NCBI RefSeq assembly: GCF_000001735.4
Contig: NC_003076.8
Location: 11,780,001 to 11,844,000, forward strand
DNA from: Arabidopsis thaliana
Taxonomy: Eukaryota > Streptophyta > Magnoliopsida > Brassicales > Brassicaceae
Direction: 5' to 3'
Length of the DNA stretch: 64,000 bases
This document shows, piece by piece, positions 2,971-64,000 of this stretch (positions are counted from its first letter, which is position 1; every line of letters starts with the position of its first letter). The notes beneath the pieces are model-generated. The model had not been told where the DNA came from, ran no database searches, and saw only the letters and a list, made by a program, of their open reading frames with translations. Position numbers and translations under genes: made by a program.

Positions 2971-4600
2971 TGATTGTAGGATTTTTACTCAATTAATCCC
3001 TAAAACACTATCCTGTCGTTGTAGTATTTTAGGATGTCAATCCAATCCGGTGTGATGCAAACAGATGAGAAATGATCAGAAAGCTCTAAGTCAAGCCAAG
3101 CAGAAAGTTGGTTGGTTCTAACAGTCCTAGTATACAATAACAGAAATGAAATGAAACTAAAAGCAGAAATGGCAATAGCAGGCAAGTAAATGACAAAGCA
3201 TAAATGATAACATGCAATCAAATGGATAAATGATTCCTAAGGATGGGGTAATCGAACAGTGTGGTCTACTTAATCTATTCAGGCGGTTGACAAAACTTCA
3301 CAGAAGCTATCCCTAGACAACAAGTTCAACAACAGATTAATTCACTCCTGTGATAGAAATCCTCAAGCAAAGCTAGACACTGACCTAAATCCCTTTAGCG
3401 ATCTCTAACTAAGCAGGCATTATCGAATCAACATGTTAAAGTCAATACCCTCTCTACAGCCAATCCCTTGGGGTAGAGTCAGATATCTCTGGAATTAATA
3501 GGATCCAACGCCCATTAAACGCCTTCTGAGCGCTGGACGTCTGGACTCATACTCCACATTAGCTAGTGAAACAAGCAATAAGCGCAACTAATCCAGAAGG
3601 GATTCTAGAATTCTAAACTCAACCGCCTAAAACGACCAAGTAAACCACAACTATTCTATCCCATCCTCAGAAATACAGTTCATTACTCCGACATAATCAA
3701 AGACAATAACAAGGCAACAATTGAAAACATGATAACAGAAATGACGAAAGACTAAAACAAAAACTGAATATCAAATACTTGAAAGCGAAACTACAAAGTC
3801 GCAGGAGAAACACTGCGGCTATCAAAGTTGCGAAAATGTAAAAGCGAGATAATAATGGATAATAGCGGATGCCCTAGGGAAAACCCTAAGAGGCAGTTTA
3901 TATAAGCGAGAAATAAAACAAATAAGGAAACTAAATATATAGCGAATCTTCACGTCATGATCCTGCGACCGAATATGTCATTGGCATCTGACGGGCTGAA
4001 ATGAGCTTCCTAGTGATCGAGTATGTCATTGATCAAACTGGGCTTCAGGGGCTCCGTCTTGCGATCGAGTGAGATGCAGTGAAGTCGAGATTGAATGGTC
4101 CAGCGACCCTGTGATCGAGTGCGATCGAGTGGATGTCATGAGGTGGTGATCGAGTGGTTTCTTCGACTTCTCTTCTCTTCTTTGTTCTCAGCTTGTCTGG
4201 TTGAGTGCAGAATGAGCAGATAGGCTTCCTGGTGATCGAGTGGTTCCGATGGGGTGATTCCTCCGGCTTCGCGATTGAGTGAAACTGAGCTGCTTGCTTC
4301 TCCGGGGTTGCGATAGAGTGATTTGCCCTGGCAGGGCTCCGAGGCTGCGATAGAGTACTTTTGCTGAAGGCGTCATTGGGCATTCTGACTTCATGTTCTG
4401 TTTTTCCTCTGTTTGAACTCCAAAAGCATCCAAAGTACCTGAAAACAACCAAATATGCCATGCACATGCAATCCTAATGCAAAATCGTCCTAAGTATGTA
4501 AAACACACTAAAACGACTCCTAATGAGATGAAATGTGGATGAAACAATGACAAACTGGTGAAGAATGGATGCCTAAATCATGTAAATTATAGACATATCA
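2971..4600 (-). repeat. Solo ATHILA LTR (C) inside gag of element A
   Basis: A 1,630-bp LTR bounded on the + strand by TGATTGTAGG and AGACATATCA (TGATATGTCT on the minus strand). It is flanked by a perfect 5-bp duplication, TTGTT, at 2966-2970 and 4601-4605. Removing it and one TTGTT restores the gag reading 'gaaacttgttgctctgaa', as seen in other copies. No internal ATHILA sequence is attached, so it arose by LTR-LTR recombination. A TATA-like gtttatata is at 3896-3904. Confidence 0.92.
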
Positions 4601-4605
4601 TTGTT
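4601..4605. repeat. Target site duplication (right) of solo LTR C
   Basis: TTGTT, identical to 2966-2970. Confidence 0.9.
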
Positions 4606-5032
4606 GCTCTGAATCATGGAGATAAGACTACTCTTGATCTCAAAGTTGTTATTCTGAATAGGAGGTGGGACACTACCAGCTCTCTGATGGTGGTTTCTAG
4701 GTGCATCACCAGCACCTATGTTGCCTGGCAACTCATTAGCATTCACCTCATTAGCCATCACTACTGGGTTTGAAGTGACTTGTTGTTCTCTAAGTTCACG
4801 CTGAATCCTGTTGATGTCGTCTCTGTATCGCAGGAGATTACGAGAACCTTGTGAACAAGTTTGCATACGTTTTGATCATATTCGGTTGATGTACTCGACG
4901 TGCTAGTCGAGTATGAGTACCTGCGAGACAAAAACAAGCAAATGAAGAAACAAGTGAGTAACCAGAAAAAAAGAAATAGAACTTGATCTTAATAACTTAG
5001 AAATCCTAAATGTAACAAGAAAAACACCCAAA

Positions 5033-5046
5033 TGGCAACGGCGCCA
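5033..5046 (-). other. Primer binding site of element A (inner copy)
   Basis: The minus strand reads TGGCGCCGTTGCC, complementary to the 3' end of tRNA-Asp (including CCA). It is preceded by ATT and by LTR-end bases (ACTATCA), then by the inserted tRNA. In D, F and G the same motif lies directly against the LTR. Confidence 0.9.
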
Positions 5047-5054
5047 AATTGATA

Positions 5055-5126
5055 GTCGTTATAGTATAGTGGTAAGTATTCCCGCCTGTCATGCGGGTGA
5101 CCCGGGTTCAATCCCCGGCAACGGCG
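5055..5126 (+). tRNA. tRNA-Asp(GTC)-like sequence, probable reverse-transcribed primer copy
   Basis: A complete 72-nt cloverleaf: acceptor arm 5055-5061/5119-5125, anticodon stem CCCGC/GCGGG with loop CTGTCAT (anticodon GTC), T arm with TTCAATC, discriminator G at 5126 and an encoded CCA at 5127-5129. The A box (TAGTATAGTGG, 5062-5072) and B box (GGTTCAATCC, 5105-5114) look intact, and a TTTT run follows at 5144-5147. Against the plant tRNA-Asp I recall there are three transitions: A7 (giving an A7-C66 mismatch), T38 and A57. An encoded CCA and a position exactly between LTR and PBS of an element primed by this same tRNA argue for origin from the primer rather than a host gene. It could still be transcribed by Pol III. 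Confidence 0.9.
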
Positions 5127-5132
5127 CCAAAT

Positions 5133-6871
5133 TGATAGTAGGGTTTTGTGTGTCAATTCCCTAAATGCATCTTCTGTCATTGCAACATTTAAGGTGTCAA
5201 TCCAAATGGGTGTAATTGCTATCAATCAGGATATGATTTGAGAATACTAAGTCAAGCAAAGTCTAGATGATTTGAGTTATCTAACAACCTAAGAGATTAT
5301 GCAAGAAACTAACTATACTAAGCAGAAATTAAAGAACATGAGTGATAAAAGCAAGAAGTAAACTACAGACCAGGAACTCTCAATGCATAAACTTAAACAA
5401 TGAACTAAGTAGAGGAATGTAAAGATGCTCGGCCAAGTATGAACATGCAGGTCGAGTAAACAGGTCGAGTAACAAAGTCGAGCAGACTAACAAAGCGAAG
5501 CGAGCAGATAAACTAAACTGAACGAGTAGAAGAGTAAATAACACGAAACTCAATAAATCTAAGCGCAACAGAGCTCTTAAGAATGGGGTAATTGGTTCTA
5601 GTGGACTCCTCAATCCATTTAGCTAACTAACAAACTCAATCAAGCTATTCCTAGATAATAGATTCAGAACCAAATCAATCCACTTTCGTGACAATGATTC
5701 TCATAACTCTACCACTTCCTAATCTCAATTTTCATTGATGAAACATAGCAAAGCAGGCTTTAAACACCAATCTATTAAAGTCAATAAGCAGTCTAAACAT
5801 CCAATGTCTTGGGCTAGAATCTACAAATCTCTGAAATAAGTTGGTTCAGACATTTCATCAAACACTTATTAGGTGGAGAAAGTCTGAAATCAATTTTCAA
5901 TTGATCAGAAAGAAAATAGCATTAAGAACTCCTAAAACAGAACGGAATCATGCATTTATAAACTTAGCTAGCTAAAGAACAGAAGAATCCAACTAAACCT
6001 AACACATCCTCAAGAACTCTAAAGAACACTACTCATGAACTATGAAGAACATCATACAAAACCCAGAAAAATCATAAAACCCATAAATCATTATAAACTT
6101 AGTATGCAATAGATCTAAGCAAGATAAACAACTTTGTAAAAGAAAATAATTGCAAAAACTTAAAAATTCAAAAGGAAATTAAAGGAAAATATTTAGGGTT
6201 TTCACAAAAGAGGCTAGAACAAAAGGAATAAAAGAGGAATCTCCATTAGGTAAAGGGAAGGGGTCTATTTATAGCAAATACTAGGTTGCCCTAATTCGCT
6301 AGAAGACAAAATAAGAAAGTCGGCGCAGCACCACTCGGGTCTAGGCCGAGTAGAAAAGTCGAGCAGCTTCCCTTGGTCACATCACTCGGCTCTAGTCCGA
6401 GTAGCTTGGTCGAGTAGGTGCGAATCTTCAAGATTCACTTTTTCTTCACTTACTCGACATGCACGTCGAGTATAAAGGTCGAGTACAACACAAATCCTCA
6501 AAAATGGCTTCTGCTGCACATTTTGTTGTCACTGTTGCACTGCTAAAACTTCTGATGCACCACTCGACCTTATCCCGTGCTTAGATCTCGAGCATAGCTT
6601 CATTTCTTTGCGTGGCATCTCTTTGGCTTGATCACTCGACGACATCCCGAGTATTGACCACGAGCTCAACTTCTTAGTTCCAAAAACTCCCAAAATAGGT
6701 CCAAAAGCACCTGTTTCACCTGTAAAACACTCCAAATGCAAATATGCTATGTAATGCAATGCAAAATGTGAAAAGGAAGGAAAATGGACTAAGAATGCAT
6801 GAAAAAGGCATGAAACTAAGCTAAATGCATGAAAAACAAGGGCTTAAAATGGTTAAAATCTAGTGTTATCA
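5133..6871 (-). repeat. 5' LTR of ATHILA element A
   Basis: A 1,739-bp LTR. On the + strand it starts TGATAGTAGGG and ends GTGTTATCA against satellite at 6872. A TATA-like CTATTTATA (reverse strand) is at 6265-6273. It is diverged from the D, F and G LTRs. Two U3 palindromes have changed arms (ACTCGG...CCGAGT at 6333-6351 and 6384-6402), with matching changes on both sides of the dyad. Confidence 0.88.
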
Positions 6872-8879
6872 GTGAGTACAACAACTAGAACCGCAATTGG
6901 ATTTTAAAAGCCTAAGTATTGTATTCTTGTAAGAAGATACAAAGACAAACACTCATACGGACTTCAGCTACACCATCAACGCTTTGAGAAGCAAGAAGAA
7001 GATTGGTTAGTGTTTTGGAGCCGAATATGACTTGATGTGATGTGTATGATTGAGTATAGGAACTTAAACCGCAATCGGATCTTAAAAGCCTAAGTAGTGT
7101 TTCCTTGTTAGAAGATACAAAGCCAAAGCCTCATACGAACTTTAGTTACACCATCAAAGCATTGACAATCAAGAAGAAGCTTGGTTAGTGTTTTGGAGTC
7201 GAATATGAGTTGATGTGATGTGTATGATTGGGTATAAGATTTTATTCCGCAACCGGATCTTAAAAGCCTAAGAAGTGTTTCCTTTTTAGAAGATACAAAG
7301 CCAAATCCTCATACGGACTTTAGCTACCCCATCAAAACTTTGAAAAGCAAGAAGAAGCTTGGTTAGTGTTTTGGAGTCAAATAATACTAGATGTCATGTG
7401 TAAGAGTACTATGACAACTAGAACCATAATCAGATCTTAAAAACCTAAGTATTGAATCTTTGTTAGAAGATACAAAGACAAACACTCATATGGACTTCGG
7501 CTACACTATCAAAGCTTTGAGAAGCAAGAAGAAGCTTGGTTAGTGTTTTGGATTCGAATATGACTTGATGTCATGTGTATGACTGAGTATAAAAACTTAA
7601 ATCGCAACCGGATCTTAAAAACCTTAGTAGTGTTTCCTTGTTAGAAGATATAAAGCCAAAGACTCATACGGACTTTAGCTTTACCATCAAAGCTTTGAGT
7701 AGATGAAGGGGCTTGGTTAGTGTTGTGGAGTCAAATATGACTAGATGTCATGTGTATGAGTGAGTATAACAACTAAAACCGCAAACGGGTCTTAAAAGCA
7801 TAAGTATTGTATCCTTGTTAAAAGATACAAAGACAAAGACTCATACGGACTTCGGCTACACCGTCAAAGCTTTGAGAAGCAAGAAGAAGCTTGGTTAGTG
7901 TTTTGGAGTCAAATATAACTTGATGTCATGTGTATGAGTGAGTATAAGAACTTAAACCGCAACCGTATCTTAAAAGCCTAAGTAGTGTTTCCTTGTTAGA
8001 AGATACAAAGCCAAAACCTCATACGGACTTTAGTTACACCATCTATGCCTTGAGAATCAAAAAGAAGCTTGGTTAGTGTTTTGGAGTCAAATATTATTAG
8101 ATGTCAAGTGTTTGAGTGAGTATGACAACTAGAACCATAACCGGACCTTCAAATCCTAAGTATTGAATCTTTGTAAGAAGATATAAAGACAAAGACTCAT
8201 ACGGACTTCGGCTACACTATCAATGGTTTGAGAAGCAAGAAGAAGCTTGGTTAGTGTTTTGGATTCAAATATGATTTGATGTCATGTGTATGAGTGAGTA
8301 TAAAGACTATAACCGCTACGGATCTTAAAAGCCTAAGTATTGTGTCCTTGTTAGAAGATACAAAGACAAATACTCATATGCACTTTGGCTAAACCATCAA
8401 AGCTTTGAGAAGCAAGAAGAAGCTTGGTTAGTGTTTTTGAGTGAAATATGACTAGATGTCATGTGCATGAGTGAGTATACCAACTAGAACCGCAATTGGA
8501 TTTTTAAAGCCTAAGTATTGTATCCTTGTTAGAAGATAAAAAAGACCAACACTCATACGGACTTCGTCAACACCATCAAAACTTTGAGAAGCAAGAAGAA
8601 GCTTGGTTAGTGTTTTGGAGTCGAAAATTACTTGTTGTGATGTGTATGATTGAGTATAAGAACATAAACCGCAACTGGAGCTTAAAAGCCTAAGTATTGT
8701 TTCCTTGATAGAAGATACAAAGGCAAAGACACATACGGAGTTTAGCTACACCATCAAAGCTTTGAGAAATTAGAAGAAGCTTGGTTACTGTTTTGGAGTC
8801 AAATATGACAAGATGTCATTTGTATGAGTGAGTATAACGACTAGAACCGCAATTGGATTTTAAATGCTTAAGTAGTGTA

Positions 8880-20302: not shown

Positions 20303-22224
20303 TCAGTCGAAGAATGAACGTAGTTGCTCGTCAATGGCTGCCTGCGATTGCTCCCAGGCCATAGACGAACCACCTTGTTCTGTATCAGTTCCAGCAGGTG
20401 GTACTCAACCTCATCAGCTTTGTGGCGGCCAGCACCGCTCTGAGGAAACTCGACCTCTCTCCTTCTGCTACGGCCAGCACCGCGGTTGCATAAACTACGA
20501 GACTGCAGAAGTCGTCCGCTCCTACTGCTAGATCGAGTGAGTGTGGTCCTCCTCTTCCTCCCAGATTCACGAGGCTCGAATGATGAATGCCTCGCAGGGA
20601 CATGCGGAATCTCCTGCTCTCTAGGCTCAGGCCTGCGCCGACTTGGCTCGGGCGCGTCATATCTCCTCAAAGGCATGTCCTGAGGGAGATGTCCCTGCGG
20701 AATAGCTGTAGTGGAAGAGGAGCAGCTGAGCTTGTTTTTCATAAACTTGATAGCCCTGAGGCACTTGGCGAGCAACTTGTCCTATTTCATGCACCACTTC
20801 TGCAGCTTGCTGTTGTTCCTGTGAGCTTCGCTTAAACTCCTGCTTTCCCTCGCAGCAGGTATATGCTCACTGAAATGATACATGCTCGTGTCAAACTCCG
20901 CCTCATGTATATCATCCGTCTCATGAATATCTTCTGTTGTAGCTCCTTCGGTATGACTGATCTCCTCAGTTGGCGGACTACCCTCGAAATAAAGTTCTTC
21001 AAGCGCAGGCTTGAAGTCAATGTTCCTGCCCTCGAGAATCCTAGTAGCGTCAATGCAGGTGAGAAGAATGTTGGCGATTTTAATCGATGAATGCTCGAAC
21101 CTGTAGCGGTGAAAGTCGCCAGCCATGTCAAACTCCAAGAACTCACATCTGCGCAAATGATCCAAGTCCATCATCCTCGGTGCTAACCCTGGTTCCTTGA
21201 GCGGTACTCCACAAGCTTCCAGAATTGGCGTCACAACGCCACCCACGCATAGTGCTCCTCTCACCTTCTTCTTCCTGTTCGTCAACGCCCACTTTCTGTC
21301 TCCACACAGATAGATCAACAGAGGCATTACTGGTGGTGCGTTGTTGAGATCGCCTCTCAAGACATTCTTCCCCTTCGTCCGACGCAGAATCCCTGTAAAC
21401 GCATAATCTATCATCTCCATGTCCGTGTTAGACACGGTGCCTGTAGACTCCCTGGAGTAAAAGACGTTGGCGACCGATCTCTGAAAGTAGCGGATCACAG
21501 GACTCCAGATTTGGTTGCTCTTGGACCGCGCCAAGTTTAGCTGTAGATTGTTCCTTATAGTGGCCCACAAATCCTTAAGCTCCTCTCTGTCAAATCTGGG
21601 TTTGGTTCCCTTTCCACAAGGGAAACCAAACAGTTCTTCTAACTTCTTGATCGAAAGCTGATACCGTTGTTCATTCACTGAGAACGTCAAGAAGCCTAAC
21701 CCCATGGTATCCAGCTCAAAGTCTGTGAGTGTCTCATACATCTCCACTTGCAGCGTGGAAAGAAACTCGATTGTCTCCTCCTTAAAGGCAGGGTAAGGGT
21801 AAGACATGAGTGTCTCCAGATGACACTTCTCGAACAGATGCTGCACGTCCTCCAGTAACTCCAATTGGGCTAAAGTCTCATAACACGGATACCTCGTTCC
21901 CCAGAATTCATTCATCTCGAAGAATTTGATATACTCCTCCACTGTAACCTCGTCGGGTTTGTTCAGCAGCTTCGTCTCCCTGCGCCATGACTCTGGCTCA
22001 TACTCGGTCTCGATATCCTCATCAATCAGCTCATATCTACTTGACATCGCCCTCTTTCCTCTGGCGATTTCAGCCCTTCTCTGATTACGTCAGGCTGTAG
22101 AGCGTTCAAATTCATCCCTGAAGCTCTGGTAAACATGTTTCTCTCTCAGTCTAGCGGACCAGGACTCAGCTTCATCCACATTGTAGTCAGGGTCCATAGA
22201 GGATTCTCCACTGTAGTTACTCAT
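20303..22224 (-). pseudogene. ATHILA ORF2 (ORF1-family protein) pseudogene in D
   Basis: The minus-strand frame starts at 22224 ([11 protein letters not shown]...). It is the counterpart of the intact ORF2 in G and shows the family block [23 protein letters not shown]...[18 protein letters not shown]. It is broken by a TGA at 22090-22092 (CGA in G), a TAG at 20782-20784 (a Gln codon in F and G) and a frameshift near 20400; the original stop would be 20303-20305. The 21-nt siR854-like segment seen in F and G is diverged here. Function unknown; I recall this family as Pfam ATHILA ORF-1. Confidence 0.85.
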
Positions 22225-23536: not shown

Positions 23537-26277
23537 CATCGAGAAGAAAATGAATGATAGAGAGGGTCTACATAGTCCTCTCTAGCATCATCATCATACC
23601 CAGCGTCCTCCCTGGAGAGGTCTGCAGCAGAATACTCAATTCCCCTTTCTTCAAAATAGGCTTCCTTCTCTTCTGGAGGGTAATCTGTCTCTTGAGACCA
23701 TCTTGAAGTGAATTCTTTTCTCGGGATAGTGTTAATCCCGCCTTTAGGTTAAGTTTCCTTCTGCATCTGATTCAGCTTACTCCTAAGTTCCTCAATAGTG
23801 TGGGCTAGCTTCTCTATAATTTCATCTTGCTTATCAGACCTCTTTTTAAGTTCTTTTACTCTTTCAGTCTCATATCCTTCTCCTGAGATCGCTCTATCAT
23901 TTCCAGAGGTTCTTCCATCTTCTGTTGACCCTTGTGGAGTTCTGTTGATGTTAAAGTGCAACTTGATGTGCTTTCCAAGGTTGAGACCTATTTTCCCTTC
24001 TCTGACATCTATCACTGCTCCCACTGAAGCTAAGAATGGTCTTCCCAGTATTAAGGGATCCTTATGCTCTACTTCCATATCCAGCACCACGAAGTCTCTA
24101 GGCACTTCTACTCCATTAAACATGACTGGTAGGTCTTTCAGCATGCCGAAGGGTTTTCTAGAAGACCTATCCGCAAGGATCAAAGTCAGGTCACAAGGTT
24201 TATACTGAATGAACTCCAACCTTCTTGTCACAGAGAGTGGCATCAAGCTAATAGAGTCTCCGAGATCGCACAGACAATCGCTGAAAGCAAATTCCCCAAT
24301 GGAACATGGTAGAGTGAAAGATCCAGGATCTTCTAACTTCTCTTGAACAATCCTTTTACCAGCAGCTCGAGATGGAGTGGCGTCACTTTCATCATCTGAA
24401 TCGTGATACATCTTGATCCTTTCCAGTATTAAATTTCTCACATCTTTGTGAGGATCAGGAATCAGGTTAAGAACTTCCATTAGTGGCATCACTGCTTCAA
24501 TCTCGTCCAACTGCTTCGCTGCAACAGACTTGTATCTCTTCATCCATGCTTTCCTGAATGTCCACGGAAGAGCACGTGAGGGTAGTGGAGTAGGTTTGAA
24601 TCGTTTTACCATTCTCTCGATTATGGCGGCCTTCTCTTTCGAGGTGGATTGAGTGAGATGGCGAGAACCAGCAGAATGGTTGAATTCAATAACAGAGACT
24701 TCAACCTGAGTAGAAGCCTCTCCTTCTTGAACATCACTGTCCTAGTGATGAAATCAGGGACTGGTCAAGTTGGCAGCTCTCGATCATGGCAGATGGTGAT
24801 GGCGTGAGCGGTTGCATACTCTTTTGGATTCTGTATAGACTTCCCTAAAAGTCCTGTAACTTTTGGTGCAGAGGTAGATGCTGATTGGCCTTCCAAATAT
24901 CTGACTTTGGTGTTTAATGCTTTCCATTTTGGCATTCAGGTCATTGTAGCTGCAGTCCAGCTTATGGTGCAATTCAGATAATTTCTTAGCAATTTCCATT
25001 GAGCTAGATGCTTGTCCCTGTAGCAGCTGTTGAACCATCTGATTCATTTCAGCATCAGGAGCAGCAGGACCTTGGTTTTGCTGAGGTGCAAACCCAGGTG
25101 GTGGTGGTTGTTGGTAGTTCCCCTGGAATTGTTGCTTAGGAACGAAACCTTGGTTGTAGGGAACAAAAGGTTTGTTCTGACCTTGTTGTTGATGTGTAGG
25201 ATACACCTGATCCTGAGGATTAGCAACGTTGGTGCTGCGGTAGGAGAGGTTGGGATTGTTGGTTTTGAAGTTGTTGTATCCTTTGTAGCCACCCTGGTTG
25301 TTGTTGATGTAGGTGACTTCTTCCAACTGGTTACCCTCCCCATCTTGGACTTGATACTGCTCGTCATCAACAAGGAAGTGCACATGCTTCTGCTGGCTAA
25401 GAAGAATTTTGTCCAGGTTGTCATTCAGCGCTTTGATATCCTTCCTGTGTTTGTCATCAGAGTCAGCTGTTCCTTTGACGGTCCTATCACAGTCCTCGTT
25501 GTAATTGCCATCTGATTGAGCAAGGTTCTCAACCAATTCCCAGCCTTCTTCAACATCCTTGTTCTGGAAATTCCCATTGCTGGCGGTATCCAGAAGCATT
25601 CAGATGCGTGGTAGGACTCCTCTGTAAAGAGTGCTGAGCAGAGAGGCTTTAGAAAAGCCATGATGAGGGCATTGGTTGGTGTAACCCTTGAAACGCTCCC
25701 ATGCTTCACAGAAGCTTTCACCATTCTTCTGTGAGAAACCAGAAATCTCATTTCTGAGTCTTGCAGTTCTGGCATTGGAGAATAACTTTGATAGAAAAGC
25801 CTTCTTGCAATCATCCCAGGTGGTGATTGAGTCATGGGGCAGATTCTTCTCCCAGATGTGTGCTTTGCCACCCAAGGAGAATGGAAACAAACGGAGCTTG
25901 AATCCGTCGTCACTGACACCATTGATCTTCGTTAGGTTGCAGAGCCTATCGAATTCATCAAGGTGGTCGAGTGGATCCTCCATTGGCAGACCATGGAATT
26001 TGTTCCCCTGAATCATCGAGATGAGACCACTCTTAATCTCAAAGTTGTTGTTCTGGATAGTAGGAGGTGCAATTCCCTTCCTCTGACGGTGATCACGTGG
26101 TGCATCTCCAGCACCAATGTTGGCAGGGCCATTTTGTTGATTCTGTTCTTCAGCCATTTCGAGTGGTTGCTGAGGTACAGGGTTGACTGTGGTTCTCCCT
26201 TTTCTGAGTTCGCGAGCTGTGCGGTTGATGTTGTCGTTGAAAAGGAGGTTCTGATTGCCTGTTAATCGAGTTCGCAT
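23537..26277 (-). pseudogene. gag-protease pseudogene of element D
   Basis: It starts at 26277 ([19 protein letters not shown]...). The gag core is clear ([32 protein letters not shown]..., [20 protein letters not shown]). A TGA at 25600-25602 interrupts it, then the frame resumes through a Gln/Asn/Pro-rich linker and shifts near 24890. The protease domain is in the frame 24612-23749, where the active-site segment reads DLGDS instead of DLGAS. The original stop is at 23537-23539. No CCHC zinc knuckle is visible. Dead copy. Confidence 0.87.
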
Positions 26278-33686: not shown

Positions 33687-35633
33687 TCAGTGGAAGAAGG
33701 AGCGGAGTTGGTCGTCAATAGCTGTCTGTGATTGCTCCCAGGCCATCGAAGAATCTCCCTGTTGTGTCCCAGCTTCCCCCTGGGGGTACTCGACCTCTGC
33801 TCCTTCGTCGCGGCCAGCACCGCTGTGATGATACTCGACCTCTCTTCTTCTGCTGCGGCCAGAACCGCGGTCGCGTAAGCTACGGGACTGGAAAAGTCGT
33901 GTACTCCTACTGCCAGACCGAGCGAGTGCAGCCTTCTTCTTTCTCCCGAGCTCCCGAGGCTCGAATGATGAATGCCTCGCAGGGACTGGTGGGACTACTC
34001 GGTCACTAGGCTCAGGCCTGTGGTGACTTGGCTCAGGCCTGTGATGACTTGGCCCTGGCGCGTCATATCTCCTCGAAGGCATGTCCTGAGGACGCTCTCC
34101 CTGCGGAATAGCTGTAGTAGAAGAGAAGCAGCTTATCTTGTCCGTCAGAAACGTGATGGCTTTGAAGCACTTGATAAGTAGCCTATCTTGTTTCTTGCAC
34201 CACCTCTGCAACTTACTGTTGTTTCTGTGAGCTTCACTCAAGCTCTTGCTCTCCCGCGCTGGAGGTACGTGCTCACTGAAATGATACATGCTCGTATCAT
34301 ACTCCTCCTCCCTATCCTCATCTGTCTCAGCAATATCATCCTCTGTAGCTTCCGTCGTAGGGACATTGTCATCAGTCGGTGGAGCGCTCTCAAAGTAGAG
34401 GTAATCACGCGCAGGTCTGAAGTCAATGTTCTCACCCTGAAGTATGGTTGTGGCCTCGATGCAGGGAAGCAAAATGTTGGCTGTTCGGGTCAGGGAGTGC
34501 TCGAATTTGTAGCGATAAAAATCGCCAACCATGTCGTATTCCAGAAACTCACAACGCCGCAAGTGATCTAAATCCATCATCCTCGGATCAAACCCTGGAG
34601 ATGTGAGAGGTACACCACATGCAATCAGAATCGGTGTCACAACGCCACCTACACAAAGGGCTCCTCGCACCTTCTTCTTTCCGTTGGTGTGCGCCCACTT
34701 CCTGTATCCACACATATGGATCAACAGAAGCATAACCAGTGGTGTATCATTGAGGTCGCCCTTTAGGACCTTCTTCCCCTTTGTTCTCTGGAGAATGCCC
34801 TTGAGTGCAGAATCAATCATTTCCATGTCTGTGTTAGACACGGTGCCCGTAGATTTCCTGGGGTACAGAACATTCGCTACTGAGCGCTGATAGTAACGGA
34901 TCACAGGGCTTCAAATCTGGTTGCTCTTAGACCTTGCAGAGTTGAGCGCCAAATCGTTCCCAATGGTTAACCACAAATCCTTCAACTCTTCCCTCTCGAA
35001 CTTGGGTTTAGTTCCCTTTCCACTAGGAAAACCAAATAATCCTTCGAAGCTCTTGATAGATAGCTGGTAACGCTACTCGTTAACTGAAAAAGTCAAGAAC
35101 CCCAACCCTTCACTCTCCAGTTCATCTGCAGTAAGTCCCTGATACAACTCCACTTGCAGAGTGGAGAGAAACTCTATTGTTTCCTTCTTATAAGCGACGT
35201 ACGGGTAAGACATCAGCGTCTCAAGATGGCACTTCTCGAATAAGTGCTGTACGTCCTCCAGTAGCCCAAGCTGGGCTAGAGTCTCGTAACAGGGGTACCT
35301 CGTTCCCCAGAAGTCGTTCAGCTCGAAAAGTCTGATGTACTCCTCCACTGTAACTTCATCAGGCTTGTTCAACAGTTTTGTTTCTCTGTGCCATGACTCA
35401 GGCTCATACTCGACGTCAATATCTTCGTCGATCAACTCATATCTGCTGGTCATCGCTCTCTTTCCTCTAGCAATCTCAGCTCTCCTTTCATTGCGTCGAG
35501 CTACTGAGCGTTGGGTCTCGGCTCTGAAGCTCTCATAAGCCTGTTGCTCTCTCTCTGGTCTAGTTGACCAAGATTCAGCTTCATCGACGTTGTAATCCGC
35601 ATCCATGGAGGATTCGCCACTGTAGTTACTCAT
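33687..35633 (-). pseudogene. ATHILA ORF2 (ORF1-family protein) pseudogene in F
   Basis: Exactly the length of G's intact ORF2 (1,947 bp), starting at 35633 ([21 protein letters not shown]...). It is interrupted by two stops: TAG at 35073-35075 (CAG in G) and TGA near 34908 (CGA in G). No indels are needed to align it with G. The acidic segment with the 21-nt siR854-like sequence is kept (34302-34322). The C-terminal part is Arg/Ser-rich. Function unknown. Confidence 0.9.
34302..34322 (-). other. siR854/miR854-like 21-mer in ORF2 of F
   Basis: The reverse complement encodes Asp-Glu-Asp-Arg-Glu-Glu-Glu and matches the 21 nt of Arabidopsis siR854/miR854 as I recall it. The same 21-mer is in G. 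Confidence 0.65.
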
Positions 35634-36882: not shown

Positions 36883-39615
36883 TTAAGAAGAAAATGGGTG
36901 ATAGAGAGGGTCTGCATAGTCCTCTCTAATCTCATCATCATATTCAGCATCCTCTCTTGAGAGATGAGTTGCAGAATACTCAATTCTTCTTTCCTCGAAA
37001 TAGGCTTCTTTCTCTTCTGGTGGATAATCTATCTCTTCAGACCATCTTGAAGTAATCTTTTTCCTCGGGATAGTGTTATTCCCGCATTTGGATTAGCTAT
37101 CTCTTGCATCTGATCCAGTTTACTCTTAAGTTGCTCAACTGTCTGAGCTAGCTTCTCTATGGTCTCTTCTTGCTCATCAGATTTCTTTTTGAGATTTCGC
37201 AAGTCGGGTGTAGAGGCTGTGCTTGGTCTAGCGATTGAATTCGAAGGCTGAGGTTGAGCCCTGACCTTTTCTTCTACAGCTGTCCTTTGCGAGGTTTTAT
37301 TGATGTCAAACTGGAGCTTGATGTGCTTCCCAAGGTTGAGACTTATTCTCCCATCTCTGACATCTATCATCGCTCCCACTGAGGCTAAGAAAGGTCTTCC
37401 TAGGATTAGAGGATCCTTAGGTTCTGCTTCCATATCAAGCACAACGAAATCCGTAGGCACCTCCACTCCATTAATCATTAGTGGCAGATCTTGTAGAAGG
37501 CCGAAGGGTTTTCTTGAAGACCCATCAGCAAGGATTAAAGTCAGGTCGCAAGGTTTGTACTGAGTGAATTCCAGCTTCCTTGCTACTGAGAGTGGCATTA
37601 AGCTTACTGAAGCTCCCAAATCACAAAGGCAATTGCTGAAAACCAATTGACCGATGGAACATGGTAGAGTGAAAGTTCCTGGATCTTCCAGTTTTTCTTG
37701 AACACTCCTCTTAACAGTGGTCCTAGACGGGATAGCATCACATTCGTCTTCTGAATCTTGATGAATCTTGATCCTTTCTAGAATTGACTTTCTCACATCT
37801 TTGTGAGGATCCGGGATTAGGTTGAGCACTTCTATTAGAGGCATCACCGCTTCCATCTCATCAAGCTGCTTCTCTGCAAGAGAATTGTATCTTTCTATCC
37901 ATGCTTTCCTGAATTTCCATGGAAGAGCACGTGAAGGTAATGGTGCTGGCTTGAATCGTTTTACCATCCTCTCAATGATGGCTGCTTTCTCGTCTAGGTT
38001 GGACTGTGTTTGAAATCGGGATCCTGCTGAATGGGCGAGTCCAACCACTGAAATTTCAATCTGAGTAGAAACCTCCCCGTCTTGAACATCACTGTCCTCG
38101 GTGATTGATGTGGAGACATGTCGAGTAGGCAGCTCTCGATCATGGCAGATGGTGATAGCGTGAGCGGTGGCGTATTCCTTTGGGTTCTGTATGGACTTTT
38201 CTGGAAGTCCTGTTACTTTTGGAGCAGAAGTTGACGCGTTTGCCCTTCCATGTATCTGACCTTATAGGTAAGTGCCTCAAGTTTGATATTCAGATCGTTG
38301 AAAGTACAATCAACCTTGTTGTGGATTTCGGCCATCTTTTGGCGAGATCCATTGCTCCTGCAGCTTGCCCTTGGAGAATCTGCTGTAACATGTTCTTCAA
38401 GTCTGAATCTGGAAGTTGTTGAAGCTGGTTGTTGTTGTGCTGTGTGAACCCAGGTGGTGGAAGTTGCTGCTGATAGTTGCCCTGATACTGCTGCTTAGGA
38501 ACATACCCTTGACCTTGGTTGTATGGAACAAAGGGCTTGGGTTGATTCTGCTGCTATGAAGGGTAAACTTGGTCCTGCGGGTTTGCAATGTTTGTACTTC
38601 TGTAAGACAGATTGGGATGGTTCTGCTTGAAGTTGTTGAAACCTTTGTTGTAACCTCCTTGGTTCTGCACATAACTGACCTCTTCTGACTGCATAGTCTC
38701 CCCATCCTGAACTTGGAACGTCTCATCATCACCCAGAAAATGAATGTGCTTCTGTTGCGCAAGCAGTAGCTTGTCCAGTTTGTCATTCATGGCTTTCATT
38801 TCCCTGCGATGCTTCTCATCAGAATCAGAGCTGGTGCGGACGCTTCTATCATAATCTTCATTATAGTTGCCATCCGACTAAGCTAAGTTCTCTACCAGCT
38901 CCCATCCGTCTTCAACGTCTTTGTTGAGAAAGTTCCCGTTAGAAGCGGTATCTAGAAGCATCCTGATCTTTGGGAGGACACCTCTGTAGAGAGTGCTGAG
39001 AAGCGAAGCTTTGGAGAAACCATGATGAGGACATTGCGTCTGATAACCTTTGAAGCGCTCCCATGCTTCGCAGAAAGTCTCATTATTCGTCTGAGTGAAA
39101 CCGGAGATATCATTCCTTAGTCTCGCAGTCCTGGAGTTCGAGAAAAACTTAGCCAAGAAGGCTTTCTTGCAGTCATTCCAGGAGGTGATAGAGCCTTGAG
39201 GAAGCGACTTTTCCCACTGATGGGCTTTGTCTCCAAGAGAGAAAGGAAACAATCTGAGCTTGAAGCCATCCTCACTGACTCCATTGATCTTTGTTAGGCT
39301 GCAGAGCCTATCAAACTCGTCCAGGTGATCGAGTGGATCCTCCATAGGGAGGCCGTGGAACTTGTTGCTCTGAACCATGGCAATGAGACCGCTCTTGATC
39401 TCAAAGTTGTTGTTCTGCACAGGTGGAGGCACGATTCCATTACGCTGATTGTGGTTGCGTGGTGCATCGCCTGCACCTATGTTGTTTGGTTGCACCTGCT
39501 CATCAACAACTGCAGCCATTGTGTCTGTTTCTGTCTGTGTTCTGAGTTGGCGTGCAATACGGTCGATGTTATCGTTGAACAGGAGATTCTGATTTCCTCG
39601 TGACCGTGTTTGCAT
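36883..39615 (-). pseudogene. gag-protease pseudogene of element F
   Basis: It starts at 39615 ([19 protein letters not shown]...) with a full Retrotrans_gag-like core. It is broken by TAG at 38878-38880 and again near 38552-38554 (both CAG in G), by a 1-bp deletion near 38243 and by another near 37104. The protease segment (frame 38048-37029) keeps the catalytic-type DLGAS and the [17 protein letters not shown] flap-side block. The C-terminal tail has a predicted coiled coil. The original stop would be 36883-36885. No zinc knuckle. Confidence 0.9.
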
Positions 39616-41681: not shown

Positions 41682-42629
41682 GACTTCATCTACACCATCA
41701 AAGCTTTGAGAAGCAAGAAGTGTCTTAGTTAGTGTTGTGGAGTCAAATATGACTAGATGTCATGTGTATGAGTGAGTATAACAACTAGAACCGCAACCGG
41801 ATTTTAAAAGCATAAACAATGACAAAGACTCATATGGACTTCGCCTACACCATCAAAGCTTTGAAAAGCAAGAAGAAGCTTGGTTAGTGTTTTGGAGTGA
41901 AATATGACTAGATGTCATGTGTATGAGGGAGTATAACAACTAGAATCGCAACCAGATCTTAAAAGCCTAAGTATTGTATCCTTGTTAGAAGATACAAAGA
42001 CGAAGACCCATACGGACTTCGGCTACACCATCAAAGCTTTGAGAAGCAAAAAGAAGCTTGGTTTGTATTTTGGAGACGAATATGACGTGATGTCATGTGT
42101 ATGATTGAGTATAAGAACTTAAACCGCAAACGGGTCTTAAAAGCCTAAGAAGGGTTTCCTTGTTAGAAGATACAAAGCCAAAGACTCATACGGACCTGGC
42201 TACAACATCAAAGCTTTGAGAAGTAAGAAGAAGCTTGGTTAGTAATTTGGAGTCGAATATGACTTTATGTCATGTGTATGATTGAGTACAAGAACTTAAA
42301 GAGCAACCGGATCTTAAAACCCTAAGTAGTGTTTCCTTGTTAGAAGATACAAATCCAAAGACTCATACAGACTTCGGTTTCACCATCAAACTTTGAGAAG
42401 CAAGAAGAAGCTAGGTTAACCTTTTGGAGTCGAATATGACTTGATGTCATGTGTATGACTGAGTACAAAAACAAGAACCGCAACGGATCTTAAAAGCCTA
42501 AGTATTGTATCCTTGTTAGAAGATACAAAGACATAGACTCATACCGAGTTTGGCTAAACCATCAAAGCTTTTAGAAGCAAGAAGAAGCTTGGTTAGTGTT
42601 TTGGAGTGAAATATGACTAGATGTCATGT

Positions 42630-52739: not shown

Positions 52740-55476
52740 ATGCAAACACGGTCACGAGGAAATCAGAATCTCCTGTTCAACGATAACATCGACCGTATTG
52801 CACGCCAACTCAGAACACAGACAGAAACAGAGACAATGGCTGCAGTTGTTGATGAGCAGGTGCAACCAAACAACATAGGTGCAGGCGATGCACCACGCAA
52901 CCACAATCAGCGTAATGGCATCGTGCCTCCACCTGTGCAGAACAACAACTTTGAGATCAAGAGCGGTCTCATTGCCATGGTTCAGAGCAACAAGTTCCAC
53001 GGCCTCCCTATGGAGGATCCACTCGATCACCTGGACGAGTTTGATAGGCTCTGCAGCCTAACAAAGATCAATGGAGTCAGTGAGGATGGCTTCAAGCTCA
53101 GATTGTTTCCTTTCTCTCTTGGAGACAAAAGCCCATCAGTGGGAAAAGTCGCTTCCTCAAGGCTCTATCACCTCCTGAAATGACTGCAAGAAAGCCTTCT
53201 TGGCTAAGTTTTTCTCAAACTCCAGGACTGCGAGACTAAGGAATGATATCTCCGGTTTCACTCAGACGAATAATGAGACTTTCTGCGAAGCATGGGAGCG
53301 CTTCAAAGGTTATCAGACGCAATGTCCTCATCATGGTTTCTCCAAAGCTTCGCTTCTCAGCACTCTCTACAGAGGTGTCCTCCCAAAGATCAGGATGCTT
53401 CTAGATACCGCTTCTAACGGGAACTTTCTCAACAAAGACGTTGAAGACGGATGGGAGCTGGTAGAGAACTTAGCTCAGTCGGATGGCAACTATAATGAAG
53501 ATTATGATAGAAGCGTCCGCACCAGCTCTGATTCTGATGAGAAGCACCGCAGGGAAATGAAAGCCATGAATGACAAACTGGACAAGCTACTGCTTGTGCA
53601 ACAGAAGCACATTCATTTTGTGGGTGATGATGAGACGTTCCAAGTTCAGGATGGGGAGACTATGCAGTCAGAAGAGGTCAGTTATGTGCAGAACCAAGGA
53701 GGTTACAACAAAGGTTTCAACAACTTCAAGCAGAACCATCCCAATCTGTCTTACAGAAGTACAAACGTTGCAAACCCGCAGGACCAAGTTTACCCTTCAC
53801 AGCAGCAGAATCAACCCAAGCCCTTTGTTCCATACAACCAAGGTCAAGGGTATGTTCCTAAGCAGCAGTATCAGGGCAACTATCAGCAGCAACTTCCACC
53901 ACCTGGGTTCACACAGCAGCAACAACAACCAGCTTCAACAACTCCATATTCGGACTTGAAGAACATGTTACAGCAGATTCTCCAAGGGCAAGCTGCAGGA
54001 GCAATGGATCTCGCCAAAAAGATGGCCGAAATCCACAACAAGGTTGATTGTACTTTCAACGATCTGAATATCAAACTTGAGGCACTTACTTCTAAGGTCA
54101 GATACATGGAAGGACAAACAGCATCAACTTCTGCTCCAAAAGTAACAGGACTTCCAGGAAAGTCCATACAGAACCCGAAGGAATACGCCACCGCTCAGGC
54201 TATCACCATCTGTCATGATCGAGAGCTGCCTACTCGACATGTCTCCACATCAATCACCGAGGACAGTGATGTTCAAGACGGGGAGGTTTCTACTCAGATT
54301 GAAATTTCAGTGGTTGGACTCGACCATTCAGCAGGATCCCGTTTTCAAACCCAGTCCAACCTAGACGAGAAAGCAGCCATCATTGAGAGGATGGTAAAAC
54401 GATTCAAGCCAGCACCATTACCTTCACGTGCTCTTCCATGGAAATTCAGGAAAGCATGGATAGAAAGATACAATCCTCTTGCAGAGAAGCAGCTTGATGA
54501 GATGGAAGCGGTGATGCCTCTAATAGAAGTTCTCAACCTAATCCCGGATCCTCACAAAGATGTGAGAAAGTCAATTCTTGAAAGGATCAAGATTCATCAG
54601 GATTCAGAAGACGAATGTGATGCTATTCCGCCTAGGACCACTGTTAAGAGGAGTGTTCAAGAAAAACTGGAAGATCCAGGAACTTTCACTCTACCATGTT
54701 CCATCGGCCAATTGGTTTTCAGCGATTGTCTTTGTGATTTGGGAGCTTCAGTAAGCTTAATGCCACTCTCAGTGGCAAGGAAGCTGGAATTCACTCAGTA
54801 CAAACCTTGCGACCTGACTTTAATCCTTGCTGATAGGTCTTCAAGAAAACCCTTCGGCCTTCTACAAGATCTGCCAGTAATGATTAATGGAGTGGAAGTG
54901 CCCACGGATTTCATTGTGCTTGATATGGAAGCAGAACCTAAGGATCCTCTAATCCTAGGAAGACCTTTCTTAGCCTCAGTGGGAGCGATGATAGATGTCA
55001 GAGATGGGAGAATAAGTCTCAACCTTGGGAAGCACATCAAGCTGCAGTTTGACATCAACGAAACTTCGCAATGGTCAGCTGTAGAAGAAAGGATCAGGGC
55101 TCAACCTCAGCCTTCGAATTCAATCACTAGACCAAGCACAGCCTCTACACCCGACTTGCGAGATCTCAAAAAGAAATCTGATGAGCAAGAAGAGACCATA
55201 GAGAAGCTAGCTCAGACAGTTGAGGAACTTAAGAGTAAACTGGATCAGATGCAAGAGATAGCTAAATCCAAATGCGGGAATAACACTATCCCGAGGAAAA
55301 AGATTACTTCAAGATGGTCTGAAGAGATAGATTATACACCAGAAGAGAAAGAGGCCTATTTCGAGGAAAGAAGAATTGAGTATTCAGCTACTCATCTCTC
55401 AAGAGAGGATGCTGAATATGATGATGAGATCAGAGAGGACTATGCAGACCCTCTCTATCACCCATTTTCTTCTTAA
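52740..55476 (+). pseudogene. gag-protease gene of element G, frameshifted
   Basis: Starts [19 protein letters not shown]. Without damage it would be about 911 aa: gag core (about residues 86-235, with [19 protein letters not shown] and [16 protein letters not shown]), a Gln/Asn/Pro-rich linker, an aspartic protease segment ([13 protein letters not shown], Asp codon at 54736; later [17 protein letters not shown]) and a C-terminal coiled coil (near 55156-55258). Compared with unit H, an extra A near 53129 (gacaaaagccc vs gacaaagccc) shifts the frame, and a Trp codon is TGA near 53178. After the shift the frame is open from 53200 to the TAA at 55474-55476. No CCHC knuckle, no reverse transcriptase. 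Confidence 0.92.
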
Positions 55477-56786: not shown

Positions 56787-58733
56787 ATGAGTAACTACAG
56801 TGGCGAATCCTCCATGGATGCGGATTACAACGTCGATGAAGCTGAATCTTGGTCAACTAGACCAGAGAGAGAGCAACAGGCTTATGAGAGCTTCAGAGCC
56901 GAGACCCAACGCTCAGTAGCTCGACGCAATGAAAGGAGAGCTGAGATTGCTAGAGGAAAGATAGCGATGACCAGCAGATATGAGTTGATCGACGAAGATA
57001 TTGACGTCGAGTATGAGCCTGAGTCATGGCACAGAGAAACAAAACTGTTGAATAAGCCTGATGAAGTTACAGTGGAGGAGTACATCAGACTTTTCGAGCT
57101 GAACGACTTCTGGGGAACGAGGTACCCCTGTTATGAGACTCTAGCCCAGCTTGGGCTACTGGAGGACGTACAGCACTTATTCGAGAAGTGCCATCTTGAG
57201 ACGCTGATGTCTTACCCGTACATCGCTTACAAGAAGGAAACAATAGAGTTTCTCTCCACTCTGCAAGTGGAGTTGTATCAGGGACTTACTGCAGATGAAC
57301 TGGAGAGTGAAGGGTTGGGGTTCTTGACTTTTTCAGTTAACGAGCAGCGTTACCAGCTATCTATCAAGAGCTTGGAAGGATTATTTGGTTTTCCCAGTGG
57401 AAAGGAAACTAAACCCAAGTTCGAAAGGGAAGAGTTGAAGGATTTGTGGTTAACCATTGGGAACGATTTGGCGCTCAACTCTGCAAGGTCTAAGAGCAAC
57501 CAGATTCGAAGCCCTGTGATCCGCTACAATCAGCGCTTAGTAGCGAATGTTCTGTACCCCAGGGAATCTACAGGCACCGTGTCTAACACAGACATGGAGA
57601 TGATTGATTCTGCACTCAAGGGTATTCTCCGGAGAACAAAGGGGAAGAAGGTCCTAAAGGGCGACCTTAATGATACACCACCGGTCATGCTTCTGTTGAT
57701 CCATATGTGTGGATACAGGAAGTGGGCGCACACCAACAGGAGGAAGAAGGTGCGAGGAGCCCTTTGTGTGGGTGGCGTTGTGACACCGATTCTGATTGCA
57801 TGTGGTGTACCTCTCAAATCTCCAGGGTTTGATCCGAGGATGATGGATTTAGATCACTTGCGTCGTTGTGAGTTTCTGGAATACGACATGGTTGGCGATT
57901 TTTATCGCTACAAATTCGAGCACTCCCTGACCCGAACAGCCAACATTTTGCTTCCCTGCATCGAGGCCACAACCATACTTCAGGGTGAGAACATTGACTT
58001 CAGACTTGCGCGTGATTACCTCTACTTTGAGAGCGCTCCACCGACTGATGACAATGTCCCTACGACGGAAGCTACAGAGGATGATATTGCTGAGACGGAT
58101 GAGGATAGGGAGGAGGAGTATGATACGAGCATGTATCATTTCAGTGAGCACGTACCTCCAGCGCGGGAGAGCAAGAGCTTGAGTGAAGCTCACAGAACCA
58201 ACAGTAAGTTGCAGAGGTGGTGCAAGAAACAAGATAGGCTACTTATCAAGTGCTTCAAAGCCATCACGTTTCTGACAGACAAGATAAGCTGCTTCTCTTC
58301 TACTACAGCTATTCCGCAGGGAGAGCGTCCTCAGGACATGCCTTCGAGGAGATATGACGCGCCAGGGCCAAGTCATCACAGGCTTGAGCCAAGTCACCAC
58401 AGGCCTGAGCCTAGTGACCGAGTAGTCCCACCAGTCCCTGCGAGGCATTCATCATTCGAGCCTCGGGAGCTCGGGAGAAAGAAGAAGGCTGCACTCGCTC
58501 GGTCTGGCAGTAGGAGTACACGACTTTTCCAATCCCGTAGCTTACGCGACCGCGGTGCTGGCCGCAGCAGAAGAAGAGAGGTCGAGTATCATCACAGCGG
58601 TGCTGGCCGCGACGAAGGAGCAGAGGTCGAGTACCCCCAGGGGGAAGCTGGGACACAACAGGGAGATTCTTCGATGGCCTGGAAGCAATCACAGACAGCT
58701 ATTGACGACCAACTCCGCTCCTTCTTCCACTGA
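56787..58733 (+). CDS. ATHILA ORF2, intact (ATHILA ORF1-family protein, function unknown)
   Basis: 648 aa, uninterrupted. I chose the ATG at 56787 ([21 protein letters not shown]), which follows a splice-acceptor-like TTTTTCAG; the in-frame upstream extension has no ATG. The N-terminal two thirds is a conserved block ([24 protein letters not shown]..., [64 protein letters not shown]). An acidic stretch follows (about residues 425-450), then a Pro/His repeat (PSHHRLEPSHHRPEPS) and an Arg/Ser-rich basic tail. I see no signal peptide and no convincing membrane segment, so an envelope role is not supported despite its position after gag. I recall the family as Pfam ATHILA ORF-1. The F and D copies are pseudogenes; this one has no inactivating change. 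Confidence 0.88.
   Translation: MSNYSGESSMDADYNVDEAESWSTRPEREQQAYESFRAETQRSVARRNERRAEIARGKIAMTSRYELIDEDIDVEYEPESWHRETKLLNKPDEVTVEEYIRLFELNDFWGTRYPCYETLAQLGLLEDVQHLFEKCHLETLMSYPYIAYKKETIEFLSTLQVELYQGLTADELESEGLGFLTFSVNEQRYQLSIKSLEGLFGFPSGKETKPKFEREELKDLWLTIGNDLALNSARSKSNQIRSPVIRYNQRLVANVLYPRESTGTVSNTDMEMIDSALKGILRRTKGKKVLKGDLNDTPPVMLLLIHMCGYRKWAHTNRRKKVRGALCVGGVVTPILIACGVPLKSPGFDPRMMDLDHLRRCEFLEYDMVGDFYRYKFEHSLTRTANILLPCIEATTILQGENIDFRLARDYLYFESAPPTDDNVPTTEATEDDIAETDEDREEEYDTSMYHFSEHVPPARESKSLSEAHRTNSKLQRWCKKQDRLLIKCFKAITFLTDKISCFSSTTAIPQGERPQDMPSRRYDAPGPSHHRLEPSHHRPEPSDRVVPPVPARHSSFEPRELGRKKKAALARSGSRSTRLFQSRSLRDRGAGRSRRREVEYHHSGAGRDEGAEVEYPQGEAGTQQGDSSMAWKQSQTAIDDQLRSFFH
58098..58118 (+). 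other. siR854/miR854-like 21-mer in ORF2 of G
   Basis: In-frame codons 438-444 of ORF2 (Asp-Glu-Asp-Arg-Glu-Glu-Glu). The 21 nt agree with my memory of Arabidopsis siR854/miR854, a small RNA from Athila6 reported to target UBP1b. This identification is from memory. Confidence 0.65.
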
Positions 58734-62364: not shown

Positions 62365-64000
62365 ATGCAAACACGGTCACGAGGAAATCAGAATCTCCTG
62401 TTCAACGATAACATCGACCGTATTGCACGCCAACTCAGAACACAGACAGAAACAGAGACAATGGCTGCAGTTGTTGATGAGCAGGTGCAACCAAACAACA
62501 TAGGTGCAGGCGATGCACCACGCAACCACAATCAGCGTAATGGCATCGTGCCTCCACCTGTGCAGAACAACAACTTTGAGATCAAGAGCGGTCTCATTGC
62601 CATGGTTCAGAGCAACAAGTTCCACGGCCTCCCTATGGAGGATCCACTCGATCACCTGGACGAGTTTGATAGGCTCTGCAGCCTAACAAAGATCAATGGA
62701 GTCAGTGAGGATGGCTTCAAGCTCAGATTGTTTCCTTTCTCTCTTGGAGACAAAGCCCATCAGTGGGAAAAGTTGCTTCCTCAAGGCTCTATCACCTCCT
62801 GGAATGACTGCAAGAAAGCCTTCTTGGCTAAGTTTTTCTCAAACTCCAGGACTGCGAGACTAAGGAATGATATCTTCGGTTTCACTCAGACGAATAATGA
62901 GACTTTCTGCGAAGCATGGGAGCGCTTCAAAGGTTATCAGACGCAATGTCCTCATCATGGTTTCTCCAAAGCTTCGCTTCTCAGCACTCTCTACAGAGGT
63001 GTCCTCCCAAAGATCAGGATGCTTCTAGATACCGCTTCTAACGGGAACTTTCTCAACAAAGACGTTGAAGACGGATGGGAGCTGGTAGAGAACTTAGCTC
63101 AGTCGGATGGCAACTATAATGAAGATTATGATAGAAGCGTCCGCACCAGCTCTGATTCTGATGAGAAGCACCGCAGGGAAATGAAAGCCATGAATGACAA
63201 ACTGGACAAGCTACTGCTTGTGCAACAGAAGCACATTCATTTTCTGGGTGATGATGAGACGTTCCAAGTTCAGGATGGGGAGACTATGCAGTCAGAAGAG
63301 GTCAGTTATGTGCAGAACCAAGGAGGTTACAACAAAGGTTTCAACAACTTCAAGCAGAACCATCCCAATCTGTCTTACAGAAGTACAAACGTTGCAAACC
63401 CGCAGGACCAAGTTTACCCTTCACAGCAGCAGAATCAACCTAAGCCCTTTGTTCCATACAACCAAGGTCAAGGGTATGTTCCTAAGCAGCAGTATCAGGG
63501 CAACTATCAGCAGCAACTTCCACCACCTGGGTTCACACAGCAGCAACAACAACCAGCTTCAACAACTCCAGATTCGGACTTGAAGAACATGTTACAGCAG
63601 ATTCTCCAAGGGCAAGCTGCAGGAGCAATGGATCTCGCCAAAAAGATGGCCGAAATCCACAACAAGGTTGATTGTACTTTCAACGATCTGAATATCAAAC
63701 TTGAGGCACTTACCTCTAAGGTCAGATACATGGAAGGACAAACAGCGTCAACTTCTGCTCCAAAAGTAACAGGACTTCCAGGAAAGTCCATACAGAACCC
63801 GAAGGAATACGCCACCGCTCACGCTATCACCATCTGTCATGATCGAGAGCTGCCTACTCGACATGTCTCCACATCAATCACCGAGGACAGTGATGTTCAA
63901 GACGGGGAGGTTTCTACTCAGATTGAAATTTCAGTGGTTGGACTCGACCATTCAGCAGGATCCCGTTTTCAAACCCAGTCCAACCTAGACGAGAAAGCAG
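62365..64000 (+). CDS. gag(-protease) ORF of unit H, open to the window edge
   Basis: ATG at 62365 ([19 protein letters not shown]). I found no stop through 545 codons; the frame leaves the window at ...NLDEKAA, before the protease. Visible parts: a variable N-terminus, the conserved [24 protein letters not shown] stretch, the gag core from residue 86 with WERFKGY at residue 185, and a Gln/Asn/Pro-rich linker at about residues 355-400. Compared with G it has the normal gacaaagccc and TGG at the two damaged sites. One replacement to note is Phe for Ser in 'NDIFGFTQ'. The product should form virus-like particles that package the RNA. No zinc knuckle is seen in the part shown. Confidence 0.88.

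Follow-up and report, generated by a model that had tools for sequence, protein, structure and literature searches.

In the retroviral scheme of reverse transcription, the 3' end of the minus strand is without U5. In the Ty3 scheme, this end does carry U5 (as outlined in PMC5371799). In HIV, m1A58 of the primer tRNA causes the major plus-strand stop, at the base before A58; on a tRNA that is unmodified, the plus strand reaches the tRNA 5' end, and it also passes A58 when the m1A58 enzyme is lost (as summarised in PMC13191261). Retained tRNA sequence is on record in the MMLV circle of Colicelli and Goff, where an incomplete tRNA-Gly lies beside the LTR, and in a Jurkat clone, where a tRNA-Gly adjoins an HIV provirus and the authors also propose a priming-independent insertion (both as described in PMC12220202). 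Whole-primer copying in retroviruses is described mainly as a dead end. Here, an integrated LTR retrotransposon of Arabidopsis thaliana is described that contains a complete copy of a tRNA-Asp, including the CCA, between its LTR and a second PBS.

The window is a 64-kb stretch of DNA (C5:11780001-11844000), and the genome searched comprises 119.66 Mb in seven contigs. The minus strand of the window, which is the sense strand of the element, reads LTR end, ATT, the complement of a complete tRNA-Asp(GTC) with CCA, ACTATCA-ATT and a second, ordinary PBS (Table 1). The first-pass annotation had described this anatomy, with the LTR-end/PBS segment duplicated on both sides of the tRNA and a two-base overlap between the tRNA 5' end and the LTR terminus, and its description is exact to the base: the 23 bp at 5034-5056 are identical to those at 5117-5139, and the tRNA 5' end shares the GT at 5055-5056 with the LTR terminus, a microhomology of 2 nt. 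The four Asp PBSs that adjoin LTR ends elsewhere in the window (52571 and 62196 on the plus strand, 39784 and 26419 on the minus strand) are all single and ordinary.

Table 1. Features of the tRNA-containing junction and its host element (window positions; C5 coordinates where given)
Feature	Position	Strand	Basis or remark
Nested LTR of another Athila-type element, splits leader	2971..4600 (approximate)	-	Breaks in sister alignments
Element leader	4601..5033	-	Goes on at about 2794-2970 beyond nested LTR
PBS complement (internal, ordinary, 13-nt PBS)	5034..5046	Element on -	Then ATTTGGGTG, as in sister elements L011 and L012
ATT spacer ahead of internal PBS	5047..5049	- (AAT on +)	Sequence
LTR terminus, second copy, ACTATCA	5050..5056	- (TGATAGT on +)	Sequence
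Complete tRNA-Asp(GTC) copy with CCA, antisense to element	5055..5129	+	ARAGORN; Rfam RF00005; alignment to host gene body plus CCA
LTR-proximal PBS TGGCGCCGTTGCC, the 3' end of the captured tRNA itself	5117..5129	-	
ATT spacer, LTR to LTR-proximal PBS	5130..5132	- (AAT on +)	Sister elements share spacer
5' LTR, 1739 bp, TGATAACA...TACTATCA	5133..6871	-	Pairs with 3' LTR at C5:11763871-11765557
TSD GTGAG	6872..6876	.	Other copy at C5:11763866-11763870, adjoins 3' LTR

A tRNA scan of this region, proposed as a check by the first-pass annotation, bears out its call: ARAGORN returns a single tRNA in the whole window, the tRNA-Asp(gtc) of Table 1. The Rfam model RF00005 matches 5055-5126 with 52.8 bits (E 1.7e-8); four host tRNA-Asp genes reach 60.3 bits each, and the capture at L009 (see below) reaches 51.9 bits. 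The copy is identical to the host tRNA plus CCA at 72 of 75 positions and is exact at both mature ends; a chance origin is therefore not at issue. The three variant bases reported earlier (A7, T38 and A57) agree with the alignment to the host gene, in which they appear as G7A, C38T and G57A (linear positions 7, 38 and 56); all three are C:G to T:A changes, and two lie at CpG.

The same annotation had described the A and B boxes as intact and followed by a TTTT run. The A box is the same as the host's and a TTTT run is present at 5144-5147, within the LTR and as the LTR's own sequence, but the B box carries one purine-for-purine change (A57), which the B-box consensus tolerates. The fold energy of the window copy is -22.8 kcal/mol versus -26.0 kcal/mol for the host tRNA without CCA (z -0.67), and its predicted acceptor stem has six pairs versus seven in the host tRNA; none of the three sequences folds into a full cloverleaf. 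Activity of the captured copy as a tRNA gene is thus conjectural.

The 3' LTR of the element lies outside the window, about 20 kb from the 5' LTR; the best relative of a 632-base piece of the 5' LTR, after itself, is C5:11764965-11765557 on the same strand. The two LTRs differ by 41 substitutions at 1686 aligned sites (22 transitions and 19 transversions) and by three gaps of 13, 40 and 1, and their K2P distance of 0.0247 gives an age of about 0.8 My with a rate of 1.5e-8 substitutions per site per year and of about 1.8 My with a rate of 7e-9. The element integrated normally into a satellite array, because GTGAG stands at both outer ends and the empty site is unbroken satellite: the joined flanks minus one GTGAG match the adjoining 178-bp satellite, which we take to be centromeric, at 94% over 400 bp without gaps. 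The TSD marks normal integration of the element and says nothing on the time at which the tRNA entered it. The element now spans about 23 kb including nested insertions, one of them within the leader, and sister element L012 shares 95.7% identity with window 4601-5046.

Among the features of Athila elements, a PBS complementary to tRNA-Asp past the LTR and ATT, two TG...CA LTRs and a 5-bp TSD are found here. Athila itself is primed by tRNA-Asp. In the relevant part of PMC6317226, tRNA-Asp is listed among the primers of non-chromoviruses, the group of Athila. Window 4000-4765 on the minus strand, most of which is nested LTR, has no Pfam match. The relative L009 has open frames that match RVT_1, RT_RNaseH, Integrase_H2C2 and rve, in that order, and a protease match below the cut-off.

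Rfam matches of other kinds accompany these elements. Four snoR71 matches in the window (25655-25761, 39017-39123, 53233-53339 and 62857-62963) lie about 0.65 kb from Asp PBSs and antisense to the element, and another, in L002 at 1605-1675 (41.9 bits, gathering threshold 40), lies beside the gag start that adjoins a captured tRNA. Since the matches recur near Asp PBSs and the L002 gag start, the snoR71 'snoRNA' family seems to be retrotransposon sequence. Three MIR854 family matches (20698-20918, 34104-34324 and 58096-58316) and one of MIR5643 (41946-42028) also fall in the retrotransposon-rich part of the window.

A pattern of T-arm, acceptor and CCA, allowing up to three mismatches, matches 29 places genome-wide, a listing that holds genes within this limit, and its backward control matches none. 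These places are 23 host tRNA-Asp genes, two PBSs without a tRNA body and four places in three loci with tRNA plus CCA, namely the window, C1:16585702, and C2:3740825 with C2:3740933. A CCA is encoded in none of these 23, all of which also match a 141-base query over the tRNA body; flanks were inspected for six of them. The first-pass annotation had named an ordinary host tRNA-Asp locus with the same flanks as evidence against its reading; among the 43 matches listed (40 of 100 candidates scored), the window locus alone covers the whole 141-base query. The window tRNA is thus no ordinary host gene, because it has a CCA that none of the 23 encodes and is flanked on both sides by LTR sequence of the element. 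No second copy of the window capture was found in the genome searches with the 141-base query and the T-arm, acceptor and CCA pattern, so within those searches no daughters of it are known. A search for similar arrangements, suggested in the same annotation, was productive: two further loci have tRNA-Asp and CCA exactly at an LTR/PBS junction, and these two capture loci are new here.

At the second locus (L009/L002, C1:16585671-16585777), the sense strand reads LTR, ATT, the complement of a complete tRNA-Asp with CCA, and then TTCTGAATC of gag. The LTR is related to that of the window element, with 87-92% identity in most aligned pieces and 85% in one; among 34 matches, no second same-strand LTR match lies close to the L009 element. 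L011 has AGAAGAC ahead of the same gag bases and the tRNA complement ends in CGAC, so that GAC is a 3-nt homology at the L009 junction; about 0.63 kb that lies between the PBS and the gag junction point in L011 is absent from L009. The L009 tRNA differs from the host tRNA by T23G and two C:G to T:A changes, at positions other than those of the window copy. The L009 capture is likely to be independent of the window capture, because both the junctions and the substitutions differ; alternatively, it could stem from a capture of the window type followed by a deletion between GAC repeats.

The third locus (L010 4826-4960, C2:3740824-3740958) has two tRNA-Asp copies, head to head, between the facing LTR ends of two subfamilies. 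One copy is a nearly complete complement (73 nt, with two 1-nt gaps), and the other is without the first bases and nine internal ones; ARAGORN calls no tRNA at L010. The mature tRNA 5' nucleotide is kept in the window, in L009 and in the left L010 copy, whereas the right L010 copy is without it. Identity is 94.8% between the left LTR arm and L045 and 91.6% between the right arm and L038; between the arms themselves, 92 of 117 aligned sites agree over the final 120 bases. Two different elements are linked via their tRNA ends, as if one over-long plus strand had templated on another; an origin by later rearrangement is possible instead.

Shorter tRNA-derived stretches were also found. L018 (5766-5838, C1:14906.8 kb) and L021 (4560-4632, C1:14807.6 kb) have a 19-nt tRNA-Asp complement, two U5-end stretches and a second PBS. 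They represent one event in two copies, within an inverted duplication (98.6% over 8.0 kb). GGAT at their first junction is common with U5 sequence, and the LTR end is repeated after the tRNA-derived bases, as at the window. L027 (C1:14869000-14878000) and L028 (C1:14845000-14854000) are inverted copies of each other, 100% identical over 8.8 kb, which may form a real palindrome or be an effect of assembly.

With up to one mismatch, GGCAACGGCGCCAAAT occurs at 298 places genome-wide and CCCCGGCAACGGCGCCAA at 23 sites, each of which was compared with the full tRNA complement; L009 is absent from the latter because it has two changes. The match to the tRNA ends at 17 nt at six sites, at 18 nt at 10, at 19 nt at two (one duplicated event) and at 22 nt at one, and the others are the full copy in the window, the two L010 copies and one host gene; these are counts of sites, some of them duplicates, and not of events. 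The 18-nt boundary is the base preceding A58. This ladder should be read with caution and is by itself no proof that the bases were copied from tRNA, because selection for RNA pairing also yields PBSs of 17-18 nt. The 13-nt PBS type CCCAAWTGGCAACGGCGCCAA occurs at 151 places with up to two mismatches. Since the bases beyond it are no tRNA copy, the tRNA seems to be rarely inherited past 13 nt in this group, which agrees with the Ty3 scheme.

Matches to other tRNAs were also sought. A 25-nt pattern for initiator-Met, with up to three mismatches, matches nine places, and single matches are weak because the backward control also gave one. L024 (C1:20469940-20470001) has 62 nt of anti-initiator-Met sequence, 87% identical, beside an LTR-like CTACA end, and L052 (C1:20466978-20467036), 3 kb away, is a degenerate duplicate of it. 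L024 is perhaps an old partial capture in a copia-like element; it is left out of the capture count because its LTRs are not established. Three other candidates were rejected: the match in L025 extends over about 19 nt, L026 is an ordinary initiator-Met gene (compensatory T-stem changes, ARAGORN), and L053 looks like a diverged relative of L026 when tRNA and flank are compared by eye. Patterns for one isoacceptor each of tRNA-Lys and tRNA-Arg match 17 and six places, respectively, none with CCA and one of the latter with CCT. A scan of viral contigs for a 20-nt extended PBS gave no match.

The window junction very probably records the capture of a primer tRNA, in which reverse transcriptase would have copied the whole primer and then made an illegitimate second strand transfer. 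From such integrated fossils, we infer the following order of events. The minus strand would have been primed by tRNA-Asp, and the plus strand would then have copied U5, ATT and, as the complete copy suggests, the entire tRNA, from a primer in which m1A58 presumably was absent or failed to block synthesis. With its over-long 3' end (..AACGAC), the plus strand would have missed the normal PBS transfer; its last two bases, AC, would instead have paired with the GT seen at the junction, at a minus-strand end holding the PBS, ATT and the last U5 bases, and synthesis would have continued from there. Integrase inserted the product into satellite DNA with a 5-bp TSD, probably after the capture had taken place. 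A microhomology of 2-3 nt is weak evidence when taken alone.

Read-through of the whole primer followed by a microhomology jump, as the first-pass annotation had proposed, is the best explanation, and it is favoured by the TSD that flanks the element and by two further loci with the same CCA/LTR junction. The annotation had the strand jump back to the LTR end; the microhomology jump stands, but an acceptor on the same template is not required, as a minus strand whose 3' end has already passed the PBS and reached U5 would suffice. It had also called the locus a fossil of failed primer removal or failed stopping, and of these a failure of removal is not separable from a failure to stop. The junctions of both the window and L018/L021 fit such a minus-strand end, but the identical sequence would result from slippage on one and the same template. 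In that version of primer capture, the plus strand reads through as above, returns by slippage to the U5 end of the template it was copying, recopies the U5 end, ATT and the tRNA 3' end, and then makes an ordinary PBS transfer. The 19-nt tRNA copy and repeated U5-end segments of L018/L021 are what repeated slippage would leave. Two separate jumps are required, however, and the second transfer would have to extend from five mismatched bases (GGGGA versus ATTTG) unless plus-strand copying stops at 13 nt; we consider slippage possible but rather doubtful.

Explanations other than primer capture fare worse. The occurrence of AATTGATAGT on both sides of the tRNA, with two bases shared, could be taken as the TSD of a mature tRNA-Asp retroposed by LINE-type machinery into the LTR/PBS junction after integration of the element. 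Such an event is very improbable: poly(A) is absent, the insertion point would need to coincide with the end of the CCA in the PBS complement and involve the element's own primer species, and L009 has the same CCA/LTR junction without such a repeat and with a deletion into gag instead. Equally remote is an origin of the tRNA from an ordinary host tRNA-Asp gene by recombination or gene conversion, the PBS supplying the CCA. The acceptor stem is common to the PBS and tRNA genes, and identity to the query over the tRNA is 95-96% for most of the 23 host genes, but at both the window and L009 the 5' junction coincides with tRNA nucleotide 1 and host leader sequence is absent, and the LTR end is duplicated. 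The stretch is rich in repeats and the assembly has large, near-identical inverted duplications elsewhere, which might raise suspicion of an assembly artefact; matching LTRs with a TSD, the further captures on C1 and C2, and substitutions peculiar to the window tRNA copy make this the least credible explanation of all.

Primer capture also allows a broader, tentative proposal. Plant Ty3/gypsy elements might make their second strand transfer by the Ty3 route, on minus strands reaching beyond the PBS into U5, and occasionally prime with tRNA-Asp that is without m1A58; over-long plus strands might then switch, across 2-4 nt of homology, to U5, to gag or to another plus strand, and the captures would be integrated records of such jumps and would contribute, on a minor scale, new tRNA genes or pseudogenes. 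The germline copy with its TSD and the captures at two more loci indicate that transfer and integration of over-long plus strands can occur in an LTR element of a plant. The junctions bear on the form of the acceptor strand; therefore, the choice between a retroviral and a Ty3-type second strand transfer, and the part played by m1A58, become testable in a plant. Similar accidents at two other places in the genome may be of use in testing the copying mechanism of these elements.

In searches of an open-access library, no report of such an arrangement in a plant element was found; a hit to PMC7472051 was discarded, as the match is confined to its reference list. The TSD-flanked plant form may, at a modest level of confidence, be a new variant of the related captures reported for the MMLV circle and the HIV provirus. 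As described in PMC12220202, the MMLV circle resembles the window in that the minus strand kept a primer tRNA, of which the plus strand left a copy beside LTR sequence; unlike the window, it is unintegrated, derives from a spurious primer and is missing four tRNA 5' bases, whereas the window has a complete copy of the cognate primer, between the LTR and a second PBS, in an integrated copy flanked by a TSD. The tRNA-Gly of the Jurkat clone is likewise a reverse-transcribed mature tRNA with CCA abutting an LTR, but it lies outside the provirus at the 3' LTR, is non-cognate, is missing five bases and comes from a cell line. Plus-strand transfer with PPT recycling in Ty3 and Ty1 involves a minus-strand 3' end with U5 and R, the very acceptor that the window fossil calls for, and the PBS there is not inherited from the tRNA, a feature that the window element seems to share; Ty3 plus strands, in contrast, stop after 12 nt of tRNA, and the relevant section of PMC5371799 describes no full capture. 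Similar to the inferred copying step is HIV product P1, in which the plus strand reaches the 5' end of unmodified tRNA; according to the review PMC13191261, only P2-4 serve as active templates in HIV, whereas the whole-tRNA end at the window appears to have been transferred and integrated.
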